DNA of 64,000 bases from positions 31,023,313-31,087,312 of the forward strand of contig OX388312.1 of assembly GCA_947579605.1 (NCBI GenBank), given 5' to 3'. Under the pieces are notes generated by a model. The model was not told where the DNA came from. It saw only the letters and a list, made by a program, of their open reading frames with translations, and made no database searches. Positions 8,249 to 60,665 of this stretch are shown here, one piece after another; positions within the stretch are counted from its first letter, which is position 1, and every line of letters begins with the position of its first letter. This DNA comes from Athripsodes cinereus. Taxonomy: Eukaryota > Arthropoda > Insecta > Trichoptera > Leptoceridae. Both the position numbers and the translations under genes were made by a program.

Positions 8249-8429
8249 AGTTCGTCGGTAGCCTGGAGGTAGAGTCTCGGCCTCCTGAACAAGGGGTTCG
8301 GGGTTCGATCCCAGGTGCCGGCAATCTCCCCTTTCACGACACAAGCTTTTAGTAGCTTACTGAGAAAGATGTATAAGGTTGTATTTGGGTTTATAACAAA
8401 ACCCAGATATATCTTTTTTAAAAAAAAAA
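8249..8429 (+). mobile_element. tRNA-derived SINE (family 1), complete copy
   Basis: The head contains an A-box-like 'ggtagcctggaggtagag' region and a B-box 'gggttcgatccc' at 8301-8312. The body carries 'caagcttttagtagcttac' and 'ttgtatttgggtttataac', and it ends in T/A-rich 'atatcttttttaaaaaaaaa'. Other copies: full-length at 26208-26384 (minus) and partial ones at 2408-2507, 25897-25980, 31993-32060 and 47605-47709. The A/B boxes predict RNA polymerase III transcription, with mobilisation by a LINE. Confidence 0.85.
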
Positions 8430-8439
8430 TCTATTCTAT

Positions 8440-8706
8440 CTATCTATACCCTCACGCCGTGTCCCAAGTGGGGTAGGCAGAGAGAACGGAACGCCAAACA
8501 GATCTATCTTTACACACTTCCTTCGCTTCCTCCACATTCATACAGTTCCTCATACACGCACGTCGGTTCCTCTTACTCAACACGCGGCCGTCCTTGAGAA
8601 TTTGATCCACGTGATCAAGCCACGTGGTTCTCGGACGCCCGCGTTTCCTCACACCCTTATCCACATTCCTTTCGTATATCACTGTTGCACACACGATCTC
8701 TCAGAC
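8440..8706 (-). pseudogene. RTE/Craft-like LINE C-terminal fragment, open frame
   Basis: The minus strand encodes KGVRKRGRPRTTWLDHVDQI, then LKDGRVLSKRNRRACMRNCM and VWRSVLSAYPTWDTA with a stop near 8452. It is nearly identical in protein to 35655-35924. After the stop comes the family's 3' end ('gagggtatag' on minus). Only the last ~70 codons are kept, and the upstream sequence diverges. Low divergence from the 35.7-kb copy suggests recent activity of the family. Confidence 0.75.
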
Positions 8707-14102: not shown

Positions 14103-14322
14103 TGTCTGAAAGAAAGGGTGTGAGGAAGCGTGAGCGTCCGAGATCAAGTGGATAAAATTCTCAAGGACGGCCGTGTGTTGAGTAAGAGGAACCGACGTGC
14201 ATGCATGAGAAATAGTATAAATGTGGAGGAAACGAAGGAAGTCTGTAAAGTTAGATCTATTTGGCGTTCCTTTCTCTCTGTCTACTCCACTTGGGACACG
14301 GCGTGAGGGTATAGTATTGTAC
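14103..14322 (+). pseudogene. RTE/Craft-like LINE C-terminal fragment with internal deletion
   Basis: Same family as 35655-35935: 'gaaagaaagggtgtgagga' then 'ctcaaggacggccgtgtgtt' and 'ttgggacacggcgtgaggg'. About 18 bp that encode TTWLDH in the other copy are missing after 'cgtccgagat' (near 14142), and frame-breaking changes follow. It ends with the family 3' terminus 'gagggtatagtat'. Confidence 0.7.
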
Positions 14323-17220: not shown

Positions 17221-17678
17221 TATTTTGCACGTTTTAGAAAAAAAGCACAAAAATTGATTCTTCTCGACATTTTTGCAGAAAATTACAAGATATTATATTA
17301 TCGACAAAATAATTCTATTACTTATATCTATTTTGTTATTAAAAAATAAACTTATTTAATAACAACACAACGATGAAGTATTTAGGATGACCTTGTTCCA
17401 TTTGCTTGTAATTTTTCGAACAATTTTGAATGTTCGAAATATAAATTATTTAAGCATATTATCGTTTACCCACAGTGCAAATAGAACCTGCCATTTTAAA
17501 TCTTGTGTTGACATCTCTAAATTTCTATTTCTTTGTAAAAAAAAAATATTTTTTAGAAATAACACAAATAAGAAAAAATAATGCAGATTTCATGAAAAAA
17601 ACACCGTTTTTTCTAAAAAAATAACACCGCATCTCTAAAAATATGACTGATTCTAAAAAAAAGTATGTTAAAAAGATG
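17221..17678. other. AT-rich non-coding stretch
   Basis: No supported feature. Open frames at 17387-17581 and 17525-17716 are low-complexity. Confidence 0.35.
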
Positions 17679-18546
17679 TTTTTGGTTATACAGAATTTAT
17701 TTATAAAAATAGTCACCTTGTTAATGATATGGAGTTTTTGGTTATACAGAATTTATTTAAAAAAAATAGTCACCTTGTTAATGATATGGAGTTTTTGGTT
17801 ACACAGAATTTATTTATAAAAAATAGTCACCTTGTTAATGATATGGAGTTTTTGGTTATACAGAATTTATTTATAAAAAATAGTCACCTATTGTTAATGA
17901 TATGGAGTTTTTGGTTATACAGAATTTTTTTTATAAAAAATAGTCACCTATTGTTAATGATATGGAGTTTTTGGTTATACAGAATTTATTTATAAAAAAT
18001 AGTCACCTTGTTAATGATATGGAGTTTTTGGTTATACAGAATTTATTTATAAAAAATAGTCACCTATTGTTAATGATATGGAGTTTTTGGTAATACAGAA
18101 TTTATTTATAAAAAATAGTCACCTATTGTTAATGATATGGAGTTTTTGGTTATACAGAATTTATTTATAAAAAATAGTCACCTTGTTAATGATATGGAGT
18201 TTTTGGTTACACAGAATTTATTTATAAAAAATAGTCACCTTGTTAATGATATGGAGTTTTTGGTTATACAGAATTTATTTATAAAAAATAGTCACCTATT
18301 GTTAATGATATGGAGTTTTTGGTTATACAGAATTTATTTATAAAAAATAGTCACCTATTGTTAATGATATGGAGTTTTTGGTTATACAGAATTTATTTAT
18401 AAAAAATAGTCACCTTGTTAATGATATGGAGTTTTTGGTTATACAGAATTTATTTATAAAAAATACTCACCTTGTTAATGATATGGAGTTTTTGGTTATA
18501 CAGAATTTATTTATAAAAATAGTCACCTTGTTAATGATATGGAGTT
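17679..18546. repeat. 57/59-bp minisatellite, about 15 units
   Basis: Fifteen 'gatatggagtttttggttat' phases occur with ATG offsets at 17729, 17786, 17843, 17902, 17962, 18019, 18078, 18137, 18194, 18251, 18310, 18369, 18426, 18483 and 18539. Spacings are 57 (seven times), 59 (five times), 60 once and 56 once. The two main unit types differ by 'caccttgtt' versus 'cacctattgtt'. The 57-bp unit is divisible by three, so runs of 57-bp units make spurious open frames (MEFLVIQNLFIKNSHL), which the 59-bp units then shift. Confidence 0.95.
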
Positions 18547-18720
18547 TAGCAAATAAATGTACACTCAATAAACAAAAAAATAATACAATAAACTGTTCTT
18601 TTAAGAAATTATAGATACAAAAAAAAAACTTTATCTCTGTGGCAATGTTTAGGTGTACACAAGTAGATTGTCGTTTATAATTTTGACATAAAGCTCTATA
18701 TTGAAAGGACCCTCCACACA

Positions 18721-19191: not shown

Positions 19192-19716
19192 TCAACCTGC
19201 AGATTCACCCGCGTCTGCCGGAGGTAAACCCGGCAAACGCAGGAGGTCCCACCTAGATACCCAGGTATCTACAAACTTTCTGAAGGCTCTAAAATTCTGA
19301 GGACACAACAGAACCTCACCAAACCAAATAGGTCTGGGAGTCCCTTCACTCATTTCCTCGAACATCAGATCCCTAGCATCCGTCATCACCGGACACACCC
19401 AAAGGATGTGGTCCGCATACTGCTTCCCCATCCCACAAACACACCACGGGCTCTCCGAAAGCCCAAGATCAAAAAGCTTGCCCCTCAGGTCGCCGTGGCC
19501 CGTCACTAGCTGGACGGAAAAGTGGTCGAAGGACAGGAAATGCTTTCTCAATCGTTCACAAACATCTGGGAGAAAACTGTAGACTAATCTAGCAGTTCTC
19601 CCCCTATCCCATCTATCCTGCCAAACCTCCATCGTTTTCTGCCGCACCCTGCTGACTGCCCTATTAAATCCCCTTATTCCGGGTTCTGCAACAACAGACA
19701 TATCGAAATGTACAAC
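19192..19716 (-). pseudogene. R1/Jockey-like LINE ORF2 C-terminal region (cut by assembly gap)
   Basis: The open frame enters from the N-gap and ends at 19192. It reads VHFDMSVVAEPGIRGFNRAV, then a conserved QLVTGHGDLRGKLFDLGL, a CCHC-type zinc motif CVCGMGKQYADHILWVCP (C-x-C-x7-H-x4-C), and a terminal WDLLRLPGLPPADAGES. QLxTGHGxFRxxLxxFGL followed by a CxC...H...C finger is the signature of the region after the RT domain in R1/Jockey-group LINEs (family knowledge). The RT itself must lie in or beyond the gap. A related 3' end lies at 61342-61401. Marked pseudogene because only this part is visible; whether the element is intact cannot be told. Confidence 0.8.
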
Positions 19717-19916
19717 NNNNNNNNNNNNNNNNNNNNNNNNNNNNNNNNNNNNNNNNNNNNNNNNNNNNNNNNNNNNNNNNNNNNNNNNNNNNNNNNNNNN
19801 NNNNNNNNNNNNNNNNNNNNNNNNNNNNNNNNNNNNNNNNNNNNNNNNNNNNNNNNNNNNNNNNNNNNNNNNNNNNNNNNNNNNNNNNNNNNNNNNNNNN
19901 NNNNNNNNNNNNNNNN
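19717..19916. other. Assembly gap (200 N)
   Basis: Exactly 200 consecutive N, a conventional placeholder length, so the true gap size is unknown. It truncates the R1-like LINE frame on its left. Confidence 0.99.
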
Positions 19917-20088
19917 AATTGGGAATGTTACCCGGGTGTAAAGAGTACTCTTAACCAGCCTGTGTCGATTCGTAAGCATCGAGACTCTGTATCATGCTAT
20001 CCTTAAGGAAGTTCACATTGATGTATCACCACGTACACGCGGTATATTTAATATACCTAACTAGTATGTAACCTAATTCATTAGGTTG

Positions 20089-35654: not shown

Positions 35655-35938
35655 GTTGGGCATGTTGAACGAATGAACGAGGTAAGAATGACAAAGAGGA
35701 TTTACTTATCTGAAAGAAAGGGTGTGAGGAAACGCGGGCGCCCGAGAACCACGTGGCTTGATCACGTGGATCAAATTCTCAAGGACGGCCGCGTGTTGAG
35801 TAAGAGGAACCGACGTGCGTGTATGAGAAACTGTATGAATGTGGAGGAAGCGAAGGAAGTGTGTAAAGATAGATCTGTTTGGCGTTCCGTTCTCTCTGCC
35901 TACCCCGCTTGGGACACGGCGTGAGGGTATAGTATAGT
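35655..35938 (+). pseudogene. RTE/Craft-like LINE C-terminal fragment, cleanest copy
   Basis: An open frame VGHVERMNEVRMTKRIYLSE, then GVRKRGRPRTTWLDHVDQIL, KDGRVLSKRNRRACMRNCMN and VEEAKEVCKDRSVWRSVLSA, ending YPAWDTA and TGA at 35922-35924. The 3' end is 'gagggtatagtatagtat'. GHVxRM, RKRGRP and the terminal tryptophans are typical of the tail of insect endonuclease/RT proteins. At least eight relatives occur in this window, all holding the same last ~270 bp or less. 5' truncation is the rule for LINEs, but the uniform size is notable. Host function is not suggested. Confidence 0.75.
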
Positions 35939-44936: not shown

Positions 44937-45092
44937 GACTTAAACAATGACAATAATAGGACAATGAAATATCCAGGGAAAGTAAATATTCAAGAAATTA
45001 CAAAATAAAACATGAATCTCATGAATCGAAATTCATGGAATACATTCGCAGTATCATGTTTAAAAAATAGAAATTGATATAATAAACAAGAA
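44937..45092 (+). promoter_or_regulatory. 5' UTR part of receptor exon with three uORFs
   Basis: Downstream of the acceptor, three upstream ATGs precede the main start. ATG 44947 opens a 6-codon frame ending at TGA 44965-44967. ATG 44964 opens a 14-codon frame and overlaps that stop (ATGA). ATG 45012 opens a 21-codon frame, in phase with the receptor, ending at TGA 45075-45077, 15 nt before the main ATG. Such an arrangement is expected to lower translation from the main ATG. It depends on the acceptor being used. Confidence 0.5.
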
Positions 45093-45960
45093 ATGGCAAA
45101 TCAGTCTGTCTACAGTTGGCCCATCGCGGCGTCAAATGATTCACTGGATATTTTGCAAGAGAACTCCAGTGCAAATGAATTAAATATAAGTGATATAGAC
45201 ATCAAACGTACATGGAAGAATATGGAACCCATCCGAGATCCTCTCTTTATAGTAATCCCGATTTCGATTATCTACATTCTAATTTTCATCACGGGATTAG
45301 TGGGTAACGTTAGTACCTGTGTAGTAATATCAAGAAACAAATCAATGCACACAGCGACCAACTATTATCTGTTTAGTCTTGCCATATCAGATTTGTTGCT
45401 TCTGATAAGTGGATTACCACAGGAGATGTATTCCATATGGTACAGGTATCCTTACATTTTCGGTGAAGTATTTTGTATCCTACGTGGTCTGGCAGCAGAG
45501 ACATCGACTAATGCTACAGTTCTTACAATAACTGCTTTTACAATAGAACGTTACGTGGCCATTTGTCACCCCTTTTTGTCACATACAATGTCTAAGCTTT
45601 CCAGAGCTATTAAATTAATATTCATTATCTGGTTAGTGGCTTTAGCTTTTGCAATACCTCAGGCATTACAGTTCGGAGTTGTGTATCATGGTGAAAGTAC
45701 GGTGTGTACTCAGAAAATGGTTTTAATCGAACACTCGTTTGAAATATCGACTTTTCTATTTTTTGTGACACCCATGACATTGATTACTTTGTTGTACGCT
45801 CTAATTGGCTTAAGACTTCGAAGTTCCGACATGATGAAGAAGGAAAGACCACGAAAATACTCTGAAAGCAGCAAGACAGCAAGATCTAGTACTTCAGTCA
45901 AGTATTCCGGAACGAGAAAAGCGACAAGCCAATGTTCAAGACGAGTTCTTAAAATGCTTG
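45093..45960 (+). CDS. Pyrokinin/PBAN/CAPA-type neuropeptide GPCR, first coding exon (partial)
   Basis: This encodes 289 residues plus one base of a split codon of a seven-transmembrane receptor. The N-terminus has four N-glycosylation sequons (N3, N15, N24, N31). TM1 (about 51-76) has GxxGN with N72; TM2 has the LAISDLL motif with D100. C128 and C205 are the expected disulfide pair. TM3 ends in ERY (152-154), followed by VAICHPF. TM4 contains W180 and TM5 contains P227 and Y235. A basic, Ser-rich third intracellular loop ends RRVLKML. The run SLAISDLLLLISGLPQEMYS and YIFGEVFCILRGLAAETSTN is characteristic of insect pyrokinin/PBAN/diapause-hormone and CAPA receptors (neuromedin-U receptor relatives), which couple peptide ligands with FXPRL-type or PRV-type ends to G proteins at the plasma membrane. 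Which subtype it is cannot be settled here. The exon ends in G|GTAAGT (45960/45961, phase 1), so TM6-TM7 lie downstream. An in-frame TGA at 45075 supports the start; context gaaATGg is favourable. Confidence 0.9.
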
Positions 45961-45966
45961 GTAAGT
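45961..45966 (+). promoter_or_regulatory. 5' splice donor of receptor exon
   Basis: GTAAGT directly after CTTG at the end of the RVLKML-coding segment, a full consensus match. Reading through gives stops within ~27 codons (46038-46040), and the hydrophobic tail so produced has no TM6 motif, which supports splicing here. Confidence 0.85.
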
Positions 45967-47009
45967 TATTTTTACTTATTAATTGTATCGGCATTAACTT
46001 TGCAACACTTCATTTTAAATTATCAAATAAAATAAAATAAATATTTACTATTTTGTTTTGTGTTACTTTTGAGTAAAACTAATGCACGACCGGTTACGCG
46101 GACTTCGAGTTCGCATCATCAGGTGATGATCTATACTATAGATCAGCACCTGATGATGCGAATCAATCTCGATTTATTAAAATTTAAAATAATTTTCAAT
46201 TAACTTTATTTCAAAAGGCATTAACCGGCTCTCCTGTATGAATGTCTATGTCTTCGTTCATAAGCATGTATGTAGCTGAATCGCTAAATATTGTATTATC
46301 GCTCAAATATTTAAACTATGAATTCGTAAATAAGAACATACATAAATACTCACTCTACTAATGAGTTTGAGATATGGTTTGAAAGAATCATTCAAATAAT
46401 CTAATTGAAAATTTCATTAAAATTAAATTATATCTGTAGAACATTATTAATAAATATGTCTGTATTTATTTAGCAGACGTATATTATTTTACTAATAAAT
46501 GAAATTACTTACTTACTGAGCTCCAAACTTCAACACAAAAGCTCTGAGGGTGCAACAAACATTCAATGAAAAAATAATTTTTCATATTAGAAAATTTAAA
46601 AAGTTAAATTATTTTTATGAAATGGCCTGGCTCCGTCATATTTTGAAAATATCCAATGAAATGTTTAACTGGTAAACGATATAAATTATTTAAGAGGCAC
46701 ACAAAAAGTATTGCTAATTTTCACTGTGATTTTACATTGTGCATGATTTATTTATTTATTTTATTTATTTTATTCTTCTTGCACATCATCATTCATATAA
46801 CAAATAAAATAAAGCAGTATACACATGAAAAAATGTGATGATGTGCAGTGGCGAGATTATCACTGTATAGTGATTTCTTCCATCTAACCACGTCACATTA
46901 ACACTAAACACAAATAGAAATAATAATAACAAAAACACAAACATTAAAAAAAAATAGCCACACAAATTAGTTTGAAAAAAAAAAATGAAAAAAACTACAA
47001 TCCACACAC
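45967..47009. other. Probable first intron of the receptor, proximal part
   Basis: No coding exon recognised. Holds the inverted repeat at 46110-46162 and a low-complexity (TTTA)n-like run near 46750-46775. Confidence 0.45.
46110..46162. repeat. Inverted repeat TTCGCATCATCAGGTG
   Basis: 16-bp perfect arms (46110-46125, 46147-46162) enclose a loop that is itself mirrored ('gatctata'/'tatagatc'). The arm 'cacctgatgatgcgaa' resembles strings in the palindrome at 2944-3174. This may be a Penelope-like terminal repeat in inverted arrangement. Confidence 0.7.
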
Positions 47010-49216: not shown

Positions 49217-49606
49217 GTTTATTGTATTAGTTGTAAGGATTGTAATATGAAGTATATAGGCCAAACGAGTAGAGCAATTAAAACTCGCATTCAGGAACAT
49301 AACAGGGCATTTAGGGGTTTATCCGGATACTCGGAGATGGCAGACCATTGTGTCCAACATGAGCATTCTATTGACATGCAAGGTACTAAGGTCTTGCACT
49401 CCGAGTCTAAGATTAACAAATTGAATGCCTTGGAGATTCTTGAAATCCATAAAAATAAGAACAATTTGGTGAATATCCAAATACCATATGCATCTCTTAA
49501 TAGTCATAACTTTAAATTTTCTCTTCATCATACTTGCCGTTTGTTTTTGTCACATTGTCCACATGTATTAAAAAAATACTTACATACTTTCATATTTTCA
49601 AAGTAA
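49217..49606 (+). pseudogene. Penelope-like element GIY-YIG endonuclease domain (5'-truncated)
   Basis: The frame opens after TAG 49214-49216 and reads VYCISCKDCNMKYIGQTSRA, then IKTRIQEHNRAFRGLSGYSE and MADHCVQHEHS. It ends at TAA 49604-49606. VYxIxCxxCxxxYIGQTxRxLxxRxxEH is the GIY-YIG nuclease motif that forms the C-terminal endonuclease of Penelope-like retroelements (family knowledge). Y at the second half of the motif, the arginine of RIQEH and the C-x2-C pair are all present, so this piece looks undamaged. The RT is missing. It lies on the same strand as the receptor and within its probable intron. No sign of domestication. Confidence 0.75.
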
Positions 49607-51800: not shown

Positions 51801-54294
51801 TGTTACGAGATCGTCCCTCCATGACGATCGCATCATTTCATTATACAAAATTATCAAAAGAGAAATTATCAAGAACATTTAAAGAAATGAATTTACATTA
51901 TTTATACATAAGAAAGTATATAATTTGGCTCGTAACCCCCAGCCTTCTATGTACAAAGCACATAGAAGACACATAGAATAGAAATTATATTATATAGAGA
52001 AAGTTTATAAAGAAAGTTACAGTTATATTTGCAAGTAAAACAGATTATTATATATTGGCTCAAGTTCATGTCTAGGTATGATTCTACTTAGTCTGTGCAA
52101 GAGAAATGCATTGTGTGTGGGTGACAGGTACATACTTCAATTATACATATTATACTTACGTAAAGTTCAGAGAATTCCCTATCCTTTGGTTTCATCATTT
52201 TCTTATGGTCATCTTATCATTATAGAATACATAGGTAATTCAAGCAATAATGTTTCTTCTGTTAGCATACTTTATATTGCAAAGATTCTACTTATATCTT
52301 TTCTTGAGTAGAATTATAGATATATATATCTCCAAGTAAACAATCAAAAATTATGTATTAAGTTCAAAATAAGATCTTCAAAAGTAATTCGTAGCTCCCA
52401 GGAAGATGATACAGTCTCTATAGCAAATTAGATCTCCATTCTGTTCCTCATTTACTGCTTAGCGAGACAGGGGAGACATCCCGCCTTAGATGGTCGAGGG
52501 TTCGAACCTCGACGACAAGATGATTCAAACTATAAATAGGTTATCTGAATTCCACTTACAAAGAGGCTAAGAAATGCACTTTAAACAGAATAGAAGCACA
52601 GAAGGTACTTGTAGGTATATATAAAATGGATTTCAACAGAAAGATAACGTATGGTAAGTGATTCACGTTTATTGTATAGACATATATTACATAACAAGAC
52701 AGTTATTTTCAAAGTAAATTTGTAGGGAACGACATTCCGCTCAATATGCAAAGTTATGAAAGTTATATCATATTCGGATTGAGACAATAAAACAAACAAT
52801 GGTAATTATCAAATAAACCAACCTTGGTATTATCAATATAAATCAATACCTGGTTTATCATATGGTCTATAAACAATTAAATGGAACCATTCATTCTTCA
52901 TTCAAACTCAAAATCTTAAATTATTACACAACGGAAAATAATATATATATCAGTTCAATGATAATATGAACTCTGTTACGGAACAAATATCATTACATAC
53001 AATATACAATAGTAATATAGTCACTTACAGATAGACAGGCGAATCGATACATTATAACACAAAGCCGAGTATGTTACTGGTGACGTATTTTGTACACTTT
53101 GACGGTAGAAGGCAGGATCGTGAAAGAAACATACTCTGATGTCGCTATGGCGGTCGCTGGTCATACCAAAGACGTACAGGGGTGCGTAGGTGGTGTCAGA
53201 ATCAGATAGATCCTGTCCTCAAGACGGAAGAGATCACTACTTCTCAAGAGGCATGAAGTATCTCATACGTTCCTACACTATCCTCAGTGTAAAATGTAGA
53301 AGGCGTCACTATTTCAATAGTCTGTCCAAACATATACGGCTGGTCATTTAATCACTCTCATAACAAGGGTCGTGACCAGAAAGTTAAGAGAGGATCATCA
53401 CGTTCTCATAGGAATGAGTGTTCATCGATAAACCACTGATGCGCAATATACAGACTCCCGCGTTGGAGAGGTAGTCGTTGCCGACCTCGGAACCCATTCA
53501 TGTTTTAATTAAATTTACATCACTGAGCAAGTATAAAGAATTGTTTAAGTGGTTTGTATGATTCCTAACATTGAATAGTTGTTCAGAAACAATGGATTAT
53601 CTAATTTCACACGGTTATGAATAATGGCGGCAACAGCAAAAACCACGCCCAAAACCAACATAACTGCTACATCACTCAAAATCTCCAAATGTTATCTTAA
53701 TATCACTTCAAATAACGTAATCTATTTAACTCAAAGGAAAAAACAAGCCTGTTCACAAAATTATTCTGTTTATTAATTACTATTAATTATTAATCGTTAT
53801 TATTGTTCCTTGATATTGGCGGTAAGATTGGTCGCGCACGTAAAACTAACACAGATTTTTAAAGTACATTATTAACGACACACAATTCGAATAGTTTTAC
53901 GTACAACAGAAGGCAACACACTTGTTTATCACATTATGAAGTTAAGTACTATTAAATAATTATCGTTAGTATTATTGTTGTGTCGGAGCTACGCAAGGCG
54001 GTTCGCAACTAAGGCGGGAAGGGACAAACCCTTCTTTCGTCCGACCTATGCCATGATTTGCGGGTAACTGATTTCAAAAGGACGCGAGCGGGACCAGGAA
54101 CGTGTAACGGTTATTCTTCAAGGGAATGAGAATCATACGATGTTGTGCCGTGTGCAGATCGAAGCACCAGCCAGTCACGTGTTCTTTGTAACGTACAATT
54201 ATTATTATTATTACGGAAGACTCACAGACAACAAATGACTGTAGGAACATTAGCCAGTATGAACTTCTCCGCAGCGATTATTTAATGCGTAGCA
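51801..54294 (-). repeat. 3' LTR of the element (2494 bp)
   Basis: TG...CA ends. It lies at the 3' side of the element, which reads on minus. It contains a tRNA-like T-arm (52493-52513) and small open frames that exist identically in the other LTR and have no known motif. GC-richer islands at 53090-53180 and 53990-54170. Confidence 0.9.
52460..52513 (+). promoter_or_regulatory. tRNA-like Pol III box pair inside the LTR (antisense)
   Basis: 'cttagcgagacaggggag' resembles an A-box and 'gtcgagggttcgaacctcg' plus 'ac' forms a 7-bp stem with a GTTCGAA loop, a perfect T-arm with B-box core GGTTCGAA. The same pair is at 58369-58422 in the other LTR. It is antisense to the element. Probably an ancient SINE head captured in the LTR; Pol III activity is untested. 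Confidence 0.45.
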
Positions 54295-54305
54295 TTCTCC
54301 CTTTC
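54295..54305 (-). promoter_or_regulatory. Polypurine tract
   Basis: On the minus strand GAAAGGGAGAA lies immediately before the TG of the 3' LTR, as required for plus-strand DNA priming. A second purine block (AAGAGGGG) lies about 5 nt further upstream. Confidence 0.8.
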
Positions 54306-54368
54306 GGCCCCTCTTGAAAATTTGAAGAGAAGCGACAAATTTTCAAGTTCCCCAATTATACAAAAAAA

Positions 54369-54522
54369 AATTGAGAACCACTACAAAAAATTGTTGAGAA
54401 CCACTGGTTACATGAAAAGATTGAATACCACTGGTCACATAAAAAAGTTGAGTACCACTGGTTACATAAAAAGTTGAGTACCACTGGTTACATAAAAAGT
54501 TGAGAACCATTGGATACATAAG
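54369..54522. repeat. 26-28-bp minisatellite in the internal region
   Basis: Six drifting units of 'ttgagtaccactggttacat' plus 'aaaaag' lie close to the polypurine tract. The open frame reading TSGTQLFYV-type repeats is incidental. Confidence 0.85.
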
Positions 54523-57500
54523 CAACTATATAGGTACCCAATTACAGACAAACAATTCAAAAAATGGTAGCTTATATACTATTACAATGTTTCTTACATC
54601 CTATAGCCCATTCAATTATTATTATTAAGCACTCGCGGTAAATTGCCCATAGTCAAAATTGATGCGAACTGTTTTCATATTTTGACTTACACTTCTTAAT
54701 AATAACACAAAATTCACTTTAGTTGTTTTAGTACGGGGCTCCTAACAAAAGTTTGAGAGCTACAATCATAACAATATAATAGTACATAGAGGTGTGTATA
54801 TATATAGACAGGTGCATATGTGCATGTATATGAAAAACACAGGTTATGAAAACAACAACTTTAAACATTTTACAATACAATCTTATAAGAAACTCAGGAT
54901 CTGTAATACGTTTCAATATACGGTTCGTTCTACATTGGTGATAAAAATTTTTTTTTAATCTATCAATACACGTACGTTTCATTAGTGGATTCATTTACTA
55001 CGATCGACGACAAGTTAACATTTTAAACATGACAAACATATAAAACATAAGTTACATACTTAAGAAGTTGGTTTACATCATTTTCGATTCCGGTTACATG
55101 TATCCAACAAGGGAAAAGTAACATAAAGGGATCTAAATAAATATAAACAATTTTGTATAGATGGAATTAGAGATACTACATTTACGCTTCATTTAACCCA
55201 TTAAGCTTAATAGCACTCATATACAAGTGATTTCATGTACCATGTACCATACAAAGATATTGGCAAAGCACAGAAAGAAATCATACATAATAAGGACATA
55301 TACATATTAGAAAAACAATTTACACGCAGACATGACATAATGGTACATCACGACGACTGCAATCACATTTACAGTAACCGATATTCATTATTGGCGTCAA
55401 ATCCTTCTACGCATATTACATAGACACAGTTCTCACACAGAGACAGATTTCTCACATAGAGATAATCTCAGAGGATCGTCATCCTCATACAGGCTTAATA
55501 CATGACAAATACATTGAACAACTTTCGATCTTTGCTACACAATATGCAAGTTACAAGTTCAATAAATTCTTTACATACATCATTATTCAAATTCAACATT
55601 TACTTCTTCATACAGGACTCACCTTTCATAAACAGATTCATACATCATCTTTATTCACTAACATACAATTAATTAAAATTATCCCATTGAATATCTGCAG
55701 CCAACATTCCACTACAGGTTTTATTCTGTGTCCTTCATAAGCCATTCCCGTTCAATGTCAAAATGTTCTATCACATTTTCCAATGTATTCAAGCAACATA
55801 AACAAACTTTTACACAAAGTTACAAAATTATATTATTCAACAAGGATATACTACATCCAAACATTTCCAATTACAATTCATAAGAGATTACTACGTGTCC
55901 CACACGGAATTAAACGTCATATAAACTCAAACTTCAAAATAATAGGTATGAACGATTAGCAATCACATTGTCTACATTCATCAAAAAGAGCATTACGATT
56001 TATCTTTCACACATCCAGATAACATCGTCTCTATATTGATTACACAAAAGTCACAAAAAAAAGTATTTAAACACATCTCTCCTACCACGGCTTTACATAA
56101 TACATAAACATAACTCATTTTTTATCAAAGAGCGTTCGTTAGTTTACCTTAACGGGACAATTCACTAAACGGACTCAGTTCTCAAATAAACAAGGCATAG
56201 GTTACTTCAATATGTCACGCTGATAATAAGCCGCAAAAGTCACATTATAACATTTCAAGAAAATTAATTACTCCACAAAAGATAACAAATTCCGAACACG
56301 AAGGGTTAATATTCAACAGCAAAAATTCTACATCGTTACATGGTTACTTCTTTAATTTCCAAAAAAATTTACAAAACATCATTTTATTATTTACGTTAAT
56401 GTCAAAATTTTCAACGATGGTCATCAAAGGGTTAACTGTTTCTTAACTAAATTAAAAATTCAGTTATAGTTCACAACTTGACATTAAAAAAATCAATTAT
56501 TATTCACAAAGGGTTGACAATTCGGTCATGCTTCACAAAGGGTTAAGTGTATTTATTTTTCAAATTTCGTGAACGGTCGTGAAGGTTTAACATTATTCAT
56601 TTCGATTTATTTTTTAACTTTAATTTTCTCAAAACAAAAATATTTGTTTAATATTATTCATCATTATTATTTCGTCACATCACTACGTACGCATATATAT
56701 ATTCTTATCAAAATTGTACTACGCATAATTTTACACAACAACGCTCATTTAATATTATTTCTCCCAGAGTTAAATAAAGATTTCTATTCCAAATGCAACA
56801 TTTTACTGTTTCAAAAATTTTAATTCAATTTAATATCAATTTTTTATTTCCAGTTTGAAAATGAATTTACTATTAAAATAACATTACAACAAAATTCTGT
56901 TTATCGGTAAAACAAAGTTCCTTGTACAAAATGGTTTACTATACCTATAACACTATGGGTACATATTATTTCGTTTCATTCCAATATTATTATTTTCAAC
57001 TATACATTTTACTAGCATTTTGGACTTCCGTTTCGCGCGTGAATATTTTTATTACATTATTGCGGTAGGTCTGTATGATGTCTCTTTCTCTCGCGGCGTA
57101 TAGGTATGTACCTACTATACGTTGTATAGACATGTATACTACCCGTTCGCACGCCGCTCGCTTCTCGCGATGCACAACTACGGTATAATATTATATCCAT
57201 CCTTACGGCGTTCGATATTATAGATACACACTATATCTTCGTTATATTATGTAGGTTGGTTTTACGATGTTTTGTTTACCGCTCAATACGAAACATTACG
57301 ATGGAATATTCTCTACAATACAATTCTTTCTCATACGGCATCGATTTTTTACTCCACATTATAACAATACTCGCGACAAACGTTTGCGCTATACACCAAT
57401 ACATTTTTTTTTTTTTTTAATACGAACATTTAAATTATTTATCTTACGATTCCTGTTTCATTTTTTAAAATTGTTTTCATATACATACACACATCAAAAT

Positions 57501-57631
57501 TATTACATTTTCAATTAATATCAATACACATAATTACACAATAAAGATAAGAATTCTGAACTTCACGATTAGGCATATTCACCACACAATACATTTAAAA
57601 TTTTAGGGTCTATGATTATCCAAATCATAAA
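54523..57631 (-). other. Internal region of the LTR element, no protein recognised
   Basis: About 3.1 kb of AT-rich DNA. Visible patterns: four spaced 'aagggttaa'/'aagggttga' motifs between 56300 and 56550 ('cacaaagggtt' twice), and a GC-richer block at 57005-57190 with many CG dinucleotides ('ctctcgcggcgtataggtat'). No zinc knuckle, DTG protease or YxDD motif was found in any frame. These features may serve packaging or replication but that is inference. Confidence 0.6.
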
Positions 57632-57671
57632 ATCCAGGACGAGCTGCCCAAATTAACACGATACGTCCTCG
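57632..57671 (-). repeat. Degenerate second copy of LTR end plus primer-binding site
   Basis: On the minus strand this reads 'gaggacgtatcgtgttaatt' followed by 'tgggcagctcgtcctggat', parallel to 'gggacgatctcgtaacattt' and 'tgggggctcgtccgggat' at 57689-57729. LTR terminus and primer site are thus tandemly duplicated with divergence about 57 bp apart. Confidence 0.65.
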
Positions 57672-57688
57672 TTCGCCCACATTGCTAC

Positions 57689-57706
57689 ATCCCGGACGAG
57701 CCCCCA
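57689..57706 (-). promoter_or_regulatory. Primer-binding site for tRNA-Pro
   Basis: On the minus strand TGGGGGCTCGTCCGGGAT, 18 nt, is the exact complement of the 3' end of animal tRNA-Pro including CCA (…CCCGGACGAGCCCCCA; family knowledge). It starts 3 nt (TTT) after the LTR end ...CGTAACA. This fixes the element's orientation and its 5' LTR. Confidence 0.9.
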
Positions 57707-57709
57707 AAA

Positions 57710-60203
57710 TGTTACGAGATCGTCCCTCCATGACGATCGCATCATTTCATTATACAAAATTATCAAAAGAGAAATTATCAAGAACATTTAAAGAAATGAA
57801 TTTACATTATTTATACATAAGAAAGTATATAATTTGGCTCGTAACCCCCAGCCTTCTATGTACAAAGCACATAGAAGACACATAGAATAGAAATTATATT
57901 ATATAGAGAAAGTTTATAAAGAAAGTTACAGTTATATTTGCAAGTAAAACAGATTATTATATATTGGCTCAAGTTCATGTCTAGGTATGATTCTACTTAG
58001 TCTGTGCAAGAGAAATGCATTGTGTGTGGGTGACAGGTACATACTTCAATTATACATATTATACTTACGTAAAGTTCAGAGAATTCCCTATCCTTTGGTT
58101 TCATCATTTTCTTATGGTCATCTTATCATTATAGAATACATAGGTAATTCAAGCAATAATGTTTCTTCTGTTAGCATACTTTATATTGCAAAGATTCTAC
58201 TTATATCTTTTCTTGAGTAGAATTATAGATATATATATCTCCAAGTAAACAATCAAAAATTATGTATTAAGTTCAAAATAAGATCTTCAAAAGTAATTCG
58301 TAGCTCCCAGGAAGATGATACAGTCTCTATAGCAAATTAGATCTCCATTCTGTTCCTCATTTACTGCTTAGCGAGACAGGGGAGACATCCCGCCTTAGAT
58401 GGTCGAGGGTTCGAACCTCGACGACAAGATGATTCAAACTATAAATAGGTTATCTGAATTCCACTTACAAAGAGGCTAAGAAATGCACTTTAAACAGAAT
58501 AGAAGCACAGAAGGTACTTGTAGGTATATATAAAATGGATTTCAACAGAAAGATAACGTATGGTAAGTGATTCACGTTTATTGTATAGACATATATTACA
58601 TAACAAGACAGTTATTTTCAAAGTAAATTTGTAGGGAACGACATTCCGCTCAATATGCAAAGTTATGAAAGTTATATCATATTCGGATTGAGACAATAAA
58701 ACAAACAATGGTAATTATCAAATAAACCAACCTTGGTATTATCAATATAAATCAATACCTGGTTTATCATATGGTCTATAAACAATTAAATGGAACCATT
58801 CATTCTTCATTCAAACTCAAAATCTTAAATTATTACACAACGGAAAATAATATATATATCAGTTCAATGATAATATGAACTCTGTTACGGAACAAATATC
58901 ATTACATACAATATACAATAGTAATATAGTCACTTACAGATAGACAGGCGAATCGATACATTATAACACAAAGCCGAGTATGTTACTGGTGACGTATTTT
59001 GTACACTTTGACGGTAGAAGGCAGGATCGTGAAAGAAACATACTCTGATGTCGCTATGGCGGTCGCTGGTCATACCAAAGACGTACAGGGGTGCGTAGGT
59101 GGTGTCAGAATCAGATAGATCCTGTCCTCAAGACGGAAGAGATCACTACTTCTCAAGAGGCATGAAGTATCTCATACGTTCCTACACTATCCTCAGTGTA
59201 AAATGTAGAAGGCGTCACTATTTCAATAGTCTGTCCAAACATATACGGCTGGTCATTTAATCACTCTCATAACAAGGGTCGTGACCAGAAAGTTAAGAGA
59301 GGATCATCACGTTCTCATAGGAATGAGTGTTCATCGATAAACCACTGATGCGCAATATACAGACTCCCGCGTTGGAGAGGTAGTCGTTGCCGACCTCGGA
59401 ACCCATTCATGTTTTAATTAAATTTACATCACTGAGCAAGTATAAAGAATTGTTTAAGTGGTTTGTATGATTCCTAACATTGAATAGTTGTTCAGAAACA
59501 ATGGATTATCTAATTTCACACGGTTATGAATAATGGCGGCAACAGCAAAAACCACGCCCAAAACCAACATAACTGCTACATCACTCAAAATCTCCAAATG
59601 TTATCTTAATATCACTTCAAATAACGTAATCTATTTAACTCAAAGGAAAAAACAAGCCTGTTCACAACATTATTCTGTTTATTAATTACTATTAATTATT
59701 AATCGTTATTATTGTTCCTTGATATTGGCGGTAAGATTGGTCGCGCACGTAAAACTAACACAGATTTTTAAAGTACATTATTAACGACACACAATTCGAA
59801 TAGTTTTACGTACAACAGAAGGCAACACACTTGTTTATCACATTATGAAGTTAAGTACTATTAAATAATTATCGTTAGTATTATTGTTGTGTCGGAGCTA
59901 CGCAAGGCGGTTCGCAACTAAGGCGGGAAGGGACAAACCCTTCTTTCGTCCGACCTATGCCATGATTTGCGGGTAACTGATTTCAAAAGGACGCGCGCGG
60001 GACCAGGAACGTGTAACGGTTATTCTTCAAGGGAATGAGAATCATACGATGTTGTGCCGTGTGCAGATCGAAGCACCAGCCAGTCACGTGTTCTTTGTAA
60101 CGTACAATTATTATTATTATTACGGAAGACTCACAGACAACAAATGACTGTAGGAACATTAGCCAGTATGAACTTCTCCGCAGCGATTATTTAATGCGTA
60201 GCA
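57710..60203 (-). repeat. 5' LTR of the element (2494 bp)
   Basis: Nearly identical to 51801-54294. It would carry the promoter for minus-strand transcription through 57709-54295. The tRNA-like arm lies at 58402-58422. No confident TATA box assigned among many AT-rich candidates. Confidence 0.9.
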
Positions 60204-60380
60204 GAAGCTAAGGCGGAATTCATCAACTGATTCACTCTACATAGATAGAAGCTGTTCATCAAAAGTGAACACATTTATACACATTTTTCATCCAATGTTA
60301 TCACTGCCATGTCAATACTCACGGTCGTGTTGTTTGTGGTTTGGCATATTTTAGTAAAAAAAAACATTTAAAAATATTGA
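60204..60380. other. Right flank of the LTR element
   Basis: Single-copy-looking sequence starting GAAGCTAAGG. Nothing else seen. Confidence 0.35.
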
Positions 60381-60665
60381 TCTACACCCTCACGCCGTGT
60401 CTCAAGTAAGATAGTAAAAGAGAATGGAATCCATATTGATCTATACTTCTGTCTCCTCTTCTACATTCATCCAATTTCTCATATATCCACGTTGATTTCT
60501 TTTACTTGAAACATCGCCGGTTTGAGAATTTGACCCATGTGGTCAAGTCATGTTTTTTTTAATTATGTGTTTTTCACGACCCTTCTTTCAAATAAATACA
60601 CTATATTTGTCTTCTTTCATCGTCCATTCGCTTCACATGTCCAAAACATCGTAACTTTATCATGT
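60381..60665 (-). pseudogene. RTE/Craft-like LINE fragment, old copy
   Basis: 'caccctcacgccgtgtctca' at its 3' terminus, then recognisable but heavily mutated positions ('gagaatttgacccatgtggt', 'cattcgcttcacatgtccaa'). The GRPRTTW-coding region is replaced by T-rich sequence near 60550. It is more diverged than 8440-8706 or 35655-35938, so the family has been inserting over a long period. Confidence 0.6.

Follow-up and report, generated by a model that had tools for sequence, protein, structure and literature searches.

How does a retrotransposon that encodes no protein of its own come to be copied? The question is raised by the window analysed here, a stretch of 64,000 nucleotides of the insect Athripsodes cinereus (Trichoptera; assembly GCA_947579605.1, contig OX388312.1, positions 31,023,313 to 31,087,312), which holds at 51801-60203, on the minus strand, an 8.4-kb long terminal repeat (LTR) retrotransposon. 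This element is very probably a young copy of a non-autonomous family resembling the large retrotransposon derivatives (LARDs), its RNA presumably being mobilised by a resident Ty3/gypsy family.

Anatomy, copy number and age of the element

Self-alignment gives two LTRs of 2,494 bp (51801-54294 and 57710-60203), gapless and 99.92% identical, which differ at two positions (53759/59668 and 54087/59996) and have the termini TG...CA (TA instead of CA at the LTR end in some other copies of the family). These paired repeats, with a primer-binding site (PBS) and a polypurine tract (PPT), identify an LTR retrotransposon. The first-pass annotation had described a young, complete, protein-less element with long LTRs and a perfect tRNA-Pro primer site on the minus strand, and this description stands: the PBS pairs at 18 of 18 positions with the tRNA-Pro of the same genome (gene 3' end ATCCCGGACGAGCCC) once CCA is added. 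The interior that it had delimited at 54306 and 57688 exists, with its ends at 54295 and 57709. The features of the element are:

57710..60203, minus strand: 5' LTR, 2,494 bp; its start, TGCTACGCATTAAA, is common to relatives and candidate helper
51801..54294, minus strand: 3' LTR, 2,494 bp; two mismatches with the 5' LTR
52321..53899, minus strand: middle of the 3' LTR, common to the helper LTR (83%); 5' LTR counterpart 58230-59808
57689..57706, minus strand: PBS TGGGGGCTCGTCCGGGAT, 18/18 complementary to tRNA-Pro, separated from the 5' LTR by a 3-nt spacer (57707-57709)
57632..57650, minus strand: imperfect second primer-site unit, TGGGCAGCTCGTCCTGGAT, with an LTR-end-like stretch before it
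57611..57629, minus strand: leader hairpin, stem 7 bp, loop 5 nt; 5/7 pairs changed on both sides (8 distinct sequences)
54295..57709, minus strand: non-coding interior, 3,415 bp; scored copies 90-95% identical
54393..54521, minus strand: 26-bp repeat in about five copies, close to the PPT (Tandem Repeats Finder); related repeats at the helper's corresponding place
54295..54413, minus strand: interior end common to the helper, 76% over 132 columns
54295..54316, minus strand: PPT CAAGAGGGGCCGAAAGGGAGAA, abutting the 3' LTR; PPT-LTR junction found 294 times in the genome
51797..51800, no strand: left target duplication, GAAA; 4-bp size set by 16 other copies
60204..60207, no strand: right target duplication, GAAG, 3/4 matching the left GAAA

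The tRNA-Pro T-arm/acceptor pattern occurs at 18 genome places, 17 of them reading GTTCAAATCCCGGACGAGC; ARAGORN called tRNA-Pro in three of four fetched pattern stretches (the fourth, 91 bp long, gave no call), and the complementary tRNA-Pro 3' end was read directly in one fetched stretch. The window itself gave nothing with ARAGORN or with Rfam at gathering scores.

The family is large. The 25-nt PPT-LTR junction has 294 exact occurrences in the 716-Mb assembly and its reversed control has none, which excludes chance and also disposes of the single-copy status that the first-pass annotation had named as a ground for doubt; in IMG/VR the junction had no match. At 20 further junctions (picked non-randomly from listed places on contigs C1-C2) the leader of the non-coding family stands at the expected place in 18. 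Exact 4-bp target duplications, a feature absent from the first-pass annotation, flank 16 of the 20 other copies fetched. By chance a 4-mer would match exactly at an end set by the motif in about 1/256 of cases; the test is slightly circular, as it demanded an LTR-end-like motif and the repeat jointly; L011 and L012 have no qualifying end, and just one LTR start was seen in L025 and L027.

The copies are young. Comparison of the two LTR bodies within each of 17 copies gives 18 mismatches in 41,626 positions (gap columns left out), and eight copies have none. If insects mutate at about 3e-9 per site and generation, the mean age is about 70,000 generations, and that of the window copy (2/2,494) about 130,000. 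As separate observations, the interior match of L027 (G000:C20:8594460-8604450) ends after about 3.0 kb and its LTRs are separated by 12 kb, which may indicate a nested insertion, and G000:C10:27610429-27619871 holds two interiors with 5,970 bp spacing and the same match scores, suggesting tandem elements with a common LTR.

The interior has the kilobase size of a LARD and no coding capacity was found in it. The gag and pol of the candidate helper described below (L029) gave no tblastn match at E<=1 to 19 interiors and 17 LTRs, in a search whose positive control, pol, recovered a second helper copy (L030) at 99%. Among eleven stop-to-stop pieces of the window copy that touch the interior and have at least 65 amino acids, ten (68-120 amino acids) showed no Pfam family above cut-off, and the eleventh extends into the LTR. 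The gag/pol profile hit in the interior that the first-pass annotation had named as a ground for refutation was not seen in these searches. Interiors are also conserved between copies, as in LARDs (mean distance 4.7%, 136 pairs, 17 copies).

The candidate helper and the probable exchange of LTRs

The genome search with the LTR also returned LTR pairs at 9-13 kb spacing with only the LTR middle in common. The coding element L029 has open frames for gag (373 codons; Retrotrans_gag and zf-CCHC) and pol (1,091 codons), with reverse transcriptase (RT), RNase H and integrase in the Ty3/gypsy order, an assignment made on L029 alone, and no further open frame of at least 120 codons downstream of pol. 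It fits the autonomous partner that the first-pass annotation had called for, the LTR start being similar and the primer site of tRNA-Pro type: its LTR begins with TGCTACGCATTAAA, as in the non-coding family; its PPT region is 76% identical to that of the window element over 132 columns; all 19 interiors match its 3' non-coding stretch at the PPT end (71-77%); and its LTR middle matches 14 of the 17 non-coding LTRs at 75-86% over 60-64% of length. L030, broken by a further open frame 1,205 codons long, has an LTR that matches the non-coding LTRs at 79-87% over 54-70%; its pol region is 96.6% identical to that of L029 and its LTR about 84%.

This coding family is itself recent. The best 42 of 2,443 candidate pol matches were scored, a floor for recent copies with old copies outside reach, and they are 99-100% identical (query copy counted) and free of stops in 41 cases. 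Perfect tRNA-Pro sites preceded by TT number 73 in the genome, again a floor (the pattern misses L034), and a perfect tRNA-Pro PBS lies 1,864-1,868 bp upstream of at least four listed pol copies. In the RT-RNase H part no relative exceeds 57% identity among the best 120 of 1,677 protein matches, where three lepidopterans (52-53%) are among the few named relatives.

The L029-type family is the likely helper, judged by these shared sequences. The LTR would produce the RNA of the element; Gag and Pol of the resident Ty3/gypsy family would package this non-coding RNA; tRNA-Pro would prime copying at the leader, and the PPT at the opposite end; and integration would leave the 4-bp duplication. We infer in this way that the non-coding element is mobilised in trans. 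Several points weigh against this view: the target duplication of the window copy matches at 3/4 bases (GAAA/GAAG); the one helper copy examined is flanked by ATGA/ATGT, again 3/4 bases matching; no duplication was resolved in 4 of the 20 fetched copies; past their first 14 nt the helper LTR ends, and the helper leader, are unlike those of the non-coding family; some other coding family could supply the proteins, one family having been examined; and RNA structure along the interior, a LARD trait according to PMC7215508, shows no general signal in 34 windows per strand (mean folding z +0.49 sense and +0.10 antisense, with one antisense end window at -5.4; 12 shuffles each).

Within the non-coding family one interior is combined with many LTRs. 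Among the 17 copies (136 pairs) interior distances run from 2.8 to 6.1% (mean 4.7), and LTR distances from 1.4 to 45% (mean 21, median 13.8), the high values being due to unalignable LTR middles; the LTR distance exceeds the interior distance in 134 of the 136 pairs, with a correlation r of 0.23. Three LTR types occur (type A in 14 copies, a second in L015 and L024, a third in L016), different types having 21-33% of their length in common, chiefly the ends, and in L011 and L025, outside the 17, LTR matches are likewise confined to the ends. Between L023 and L026 the LTRs differ by 1.4% and the interiors by 5.2%, and for this pair the LTR-middle and interior trees disagree at supports exceeding 90. 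The LTR-middle tree sets the two helper LTRs apart (split support 86), each of them lying nearest to a non-coding copy; the exact placement of L030 is weak (51). The conflict is best read as frequent recombination among non-coding copies and with the helper.

The uniformity of the interior may reflect selection on it, and here a rival arises, with a chance only a little short of even: a recent recombinational sweep could have carried one interior over old LTR lineages, which would replace the selection part only. The tight interior distances, their weak tie to LTR distances and the conflicting trees fit such a sweep, whereas the very uneven interior diversity (0.007 to 0.135 per 100-bp bin) suggests constraint, and the same contrast between interior and LTR is seen in the coding helper.

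That the family is a simple internal-deletion derivative of the helper is very improbable. The LTR middle, LTR start and PPT region are common to both, but beyond the last 120-150 bp the interiors match neither the leader nor the 3' non-coding stretch of L029 (E<=1e-4), and they do not match its gag/pol at E<=1. We consider it very improbable indeed that the interior encodes an unrecognised protein. For such a protein speak the much stronger conservation of the interior than of the LTRs, an antisense frame of 120 codons recurring in at least 5 of 19 copies, and a 69-amino-acid piece with a weak Pfam match (E 5.6e-4, 20.4 bits, below the cut-off of 26); one interior piece matches two Pfam families, both under cut-off. 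Against it, codon periodicity was absent in all 61 windows of the 19 interiors (lowest p 0.11), just 160 of 976 gap runs are divisible by three, and the longest stop-to-stop frames vary from 114 to 163 codons and are chiefly antisense. An assembly or segmental duplication mimicking insertion, which the first-pass annotation had also raised, is extremely improbable: the window copy has no exact target duplication, which speaks for such an event, but the family consists of many dispersed copies with differing flanks of their own and exact 4-bp duplications in 16/20, and the objection fails as far as these copies show. A Helenus-type terminal-repeat retrotransposon in miniature (TRIM) with a tRNA promoter in its LTR has a negligible chance, in spite of the 4-bp duplication that animal Helenus elements also have (PMC10886601) and of the B-box-like GGTTCGAACC in the window LTR, since the element is 8.4 kb long and none in that paper exceeds 1,263 bp (TRIMs lying under about 1.3 kb), the 10-mer GGTTCGAACC is present in 1/17 LTRs and 0/2 helper LTR stretches, and Rfam at E<=5 gave the element no tRNA match, only two chance small nucleolar RNA matches, one in each LTR. 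Its absence from the 16 other LTRs and both helper stretches is why the exact 10-mer was not kept as a tRNA-like B box.

Stacked primer sites in the leader and differences at the U5 ends

Primer-site units, located by a motif list, stand after LTR-end-like stretches and may be stacked. The 39 junctions anchored among 41 inspected have one unit (18), two (17) or three (4), counts that are floors with 190 nt inspected per junction. The interior-most unit is of type A in 22, B in 10, E in 5 and perfect in 2, and the second unit of the window copy, TGGGCAGCTCGTCCTGGAT, is the type that is interior-most in 22/39. A perfect tRNA-Pro site anywhere in the junction was found in 6/39, which makes that of the window copy an exception in its family; none of the 18 tRNA-Pro pattern matches has a 3' end fitting the type A unit. 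Both LTRs of L015, L017 and L028 terminate at the second unit, so that the LTR now includes the first unit; the 3' LTR of L024 and of L026 terminates there too. The helper leader likewise has two primer-site units.

Pairing in the hairpin behind these units is kept through two-sided changes in 5/7 pairs (8 distinct sequences). Its covariation score and percentage paired are higher than in any of the 500 shuffles and in any slide; 17/500 shuffles reached its number of doubly changed pairs, and 296/500 its number of further pair types. The structure was derived from the same sequences, whose variants form few groups, so that few events are represented.

It is tentatively suggested, and we hold it to be rather doubtful, that this is a leader of an undescribed kind: a stack of one to three cassettes, in each of which a mostly degenerate tRNA-Pro site is joined to an LTR-end-like stretch, and behind them a conserved hairpin. 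The choice of cassette would shift the LTR boundary and the integration end, and degeneracy might evade silencing by tRNA fragments yet allow priming, giving rapid LTR turnover on a fixed interior. The commonest PBS of mouse ETn, MusD and IAP elements is mismatched to its tRNA, which has been read as evasion of tRNA fragments (PMC7472051); among the papers listed in the literature searched there was no relevant report of stacked primer sites.

Differences between the LTRs of one copy concentrate in the last 60 nt, at the U5 (unique 5') end: 19/1,020 positions in the 17 copies compared with 18/41,626 elsewhere, about 43-fold, with a binomial p of 2e-21 that is overstated because the differences cluster within copies. 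Six of the 17 copies are concerned (several differences in L018, L022, L024 and L026, one in L013 and L020), the unit shift in L026 adding gaps to the comparison. Both LTR ends normally come from one template. The hotspot fits a template exchange that involves a second RNA close to the second strand transfer, a mechanism that would involve co-packaging of two different RNAs.

Neighbouring features and known systems

Other features of the window include an exon of a pyrokinin-1-receptor-like G protein-coupled receptor (45078-46040, plus strand), whose named relatives among the best 120 of 1,742 matches are from Timema, cockroaches, termites, crickets, beetles, wasps and mosquitoes. No lepidopteran occurs in this named minority, and the lepidopteran origin assumed by the first-pass annotation is doubtful on this one gene; the lepidopterans among the named RT relatives point the other way, but hosts are poorly predicted by mobile elements. 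In IMG/VR 26 stretches fit the receptor peptide pattern and none was confirmed. A tandem array whose unit measures about 58 bp lies at 17678-18547 (copies roughly 95-100% identical), an assembly gap of 200 unknown bases at about 19650-19950, and a dispersed repeat to the right of the element at 60346-60644 (relatives at 8409-8625, 14149-14314 and 35656-35932, 69-71% identity). The short open frame at 49217-49606 (plus strand) has a partial GIY-YIG domain and may be a Penelope-like remnant.

One insect assembly thus holds a large recent non-coding LTR family plus a recent coding likely helper, so that questions of the ETn/MusD type become testable in insects: which features are needed for hijacking, and how primer sites balance priming against silencing. 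One interior on many LTRs, with the U5-end differences, would allow template switching between packaged RNAs to be read from sequence alone.

Grass LARDs of the Sukkula type (Kalendar et al., 2004) reportedly have LTRs and interiors of several kb. By analogy the element is LARD-like and comparable to mouse ETn/MusD. The statement of the first-pass annotation that LARDs are known chiefly from plants was too strong: in a moth and in two bumblebees LARD or LARD/TRIM fractions appear in the output of annotation pipelines (PMC10923946, PMC4414376), and mouse ETn/MusD is built in the same way (PMC6466679). With grass LARDs of the Sukkula type (PMC7215508) the family has in common a non-coding interior, a conserved group and an assumed reliance on another element; it differs in its insect host, the likely helper identified, mosaic LTRs, stacked primer-site units and the lack of RNA structure found along the interior. 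The Culex cqUNK elements are also insect LTR elements without coding capacity, but have LTRs of 208-337 bp and 5-bp duplications in the table rows consulted, and their authors found no master copy (PMC3286476). Helenus and other TRIMs are non-coding too, with 4-bp duplications in animals, but are miniature and have a tRNA-derived promoter in the LTR (PMC10886601). In mouse ETn/MusD and VL30/MLV a non-coding LTR element is moved by a coding one (PMC6466679), as we infer here, and the most common PBS of ETn, MusD and IAP is mismatched to the tRNA (PMC7472051), whereas the Athripsodes family has 2.5-kb LTRs, stacked primer-site units, predicted tRNA-Pro priming and a likely Ty3/gypsy helper without a frame of at least 120 codons after pol.

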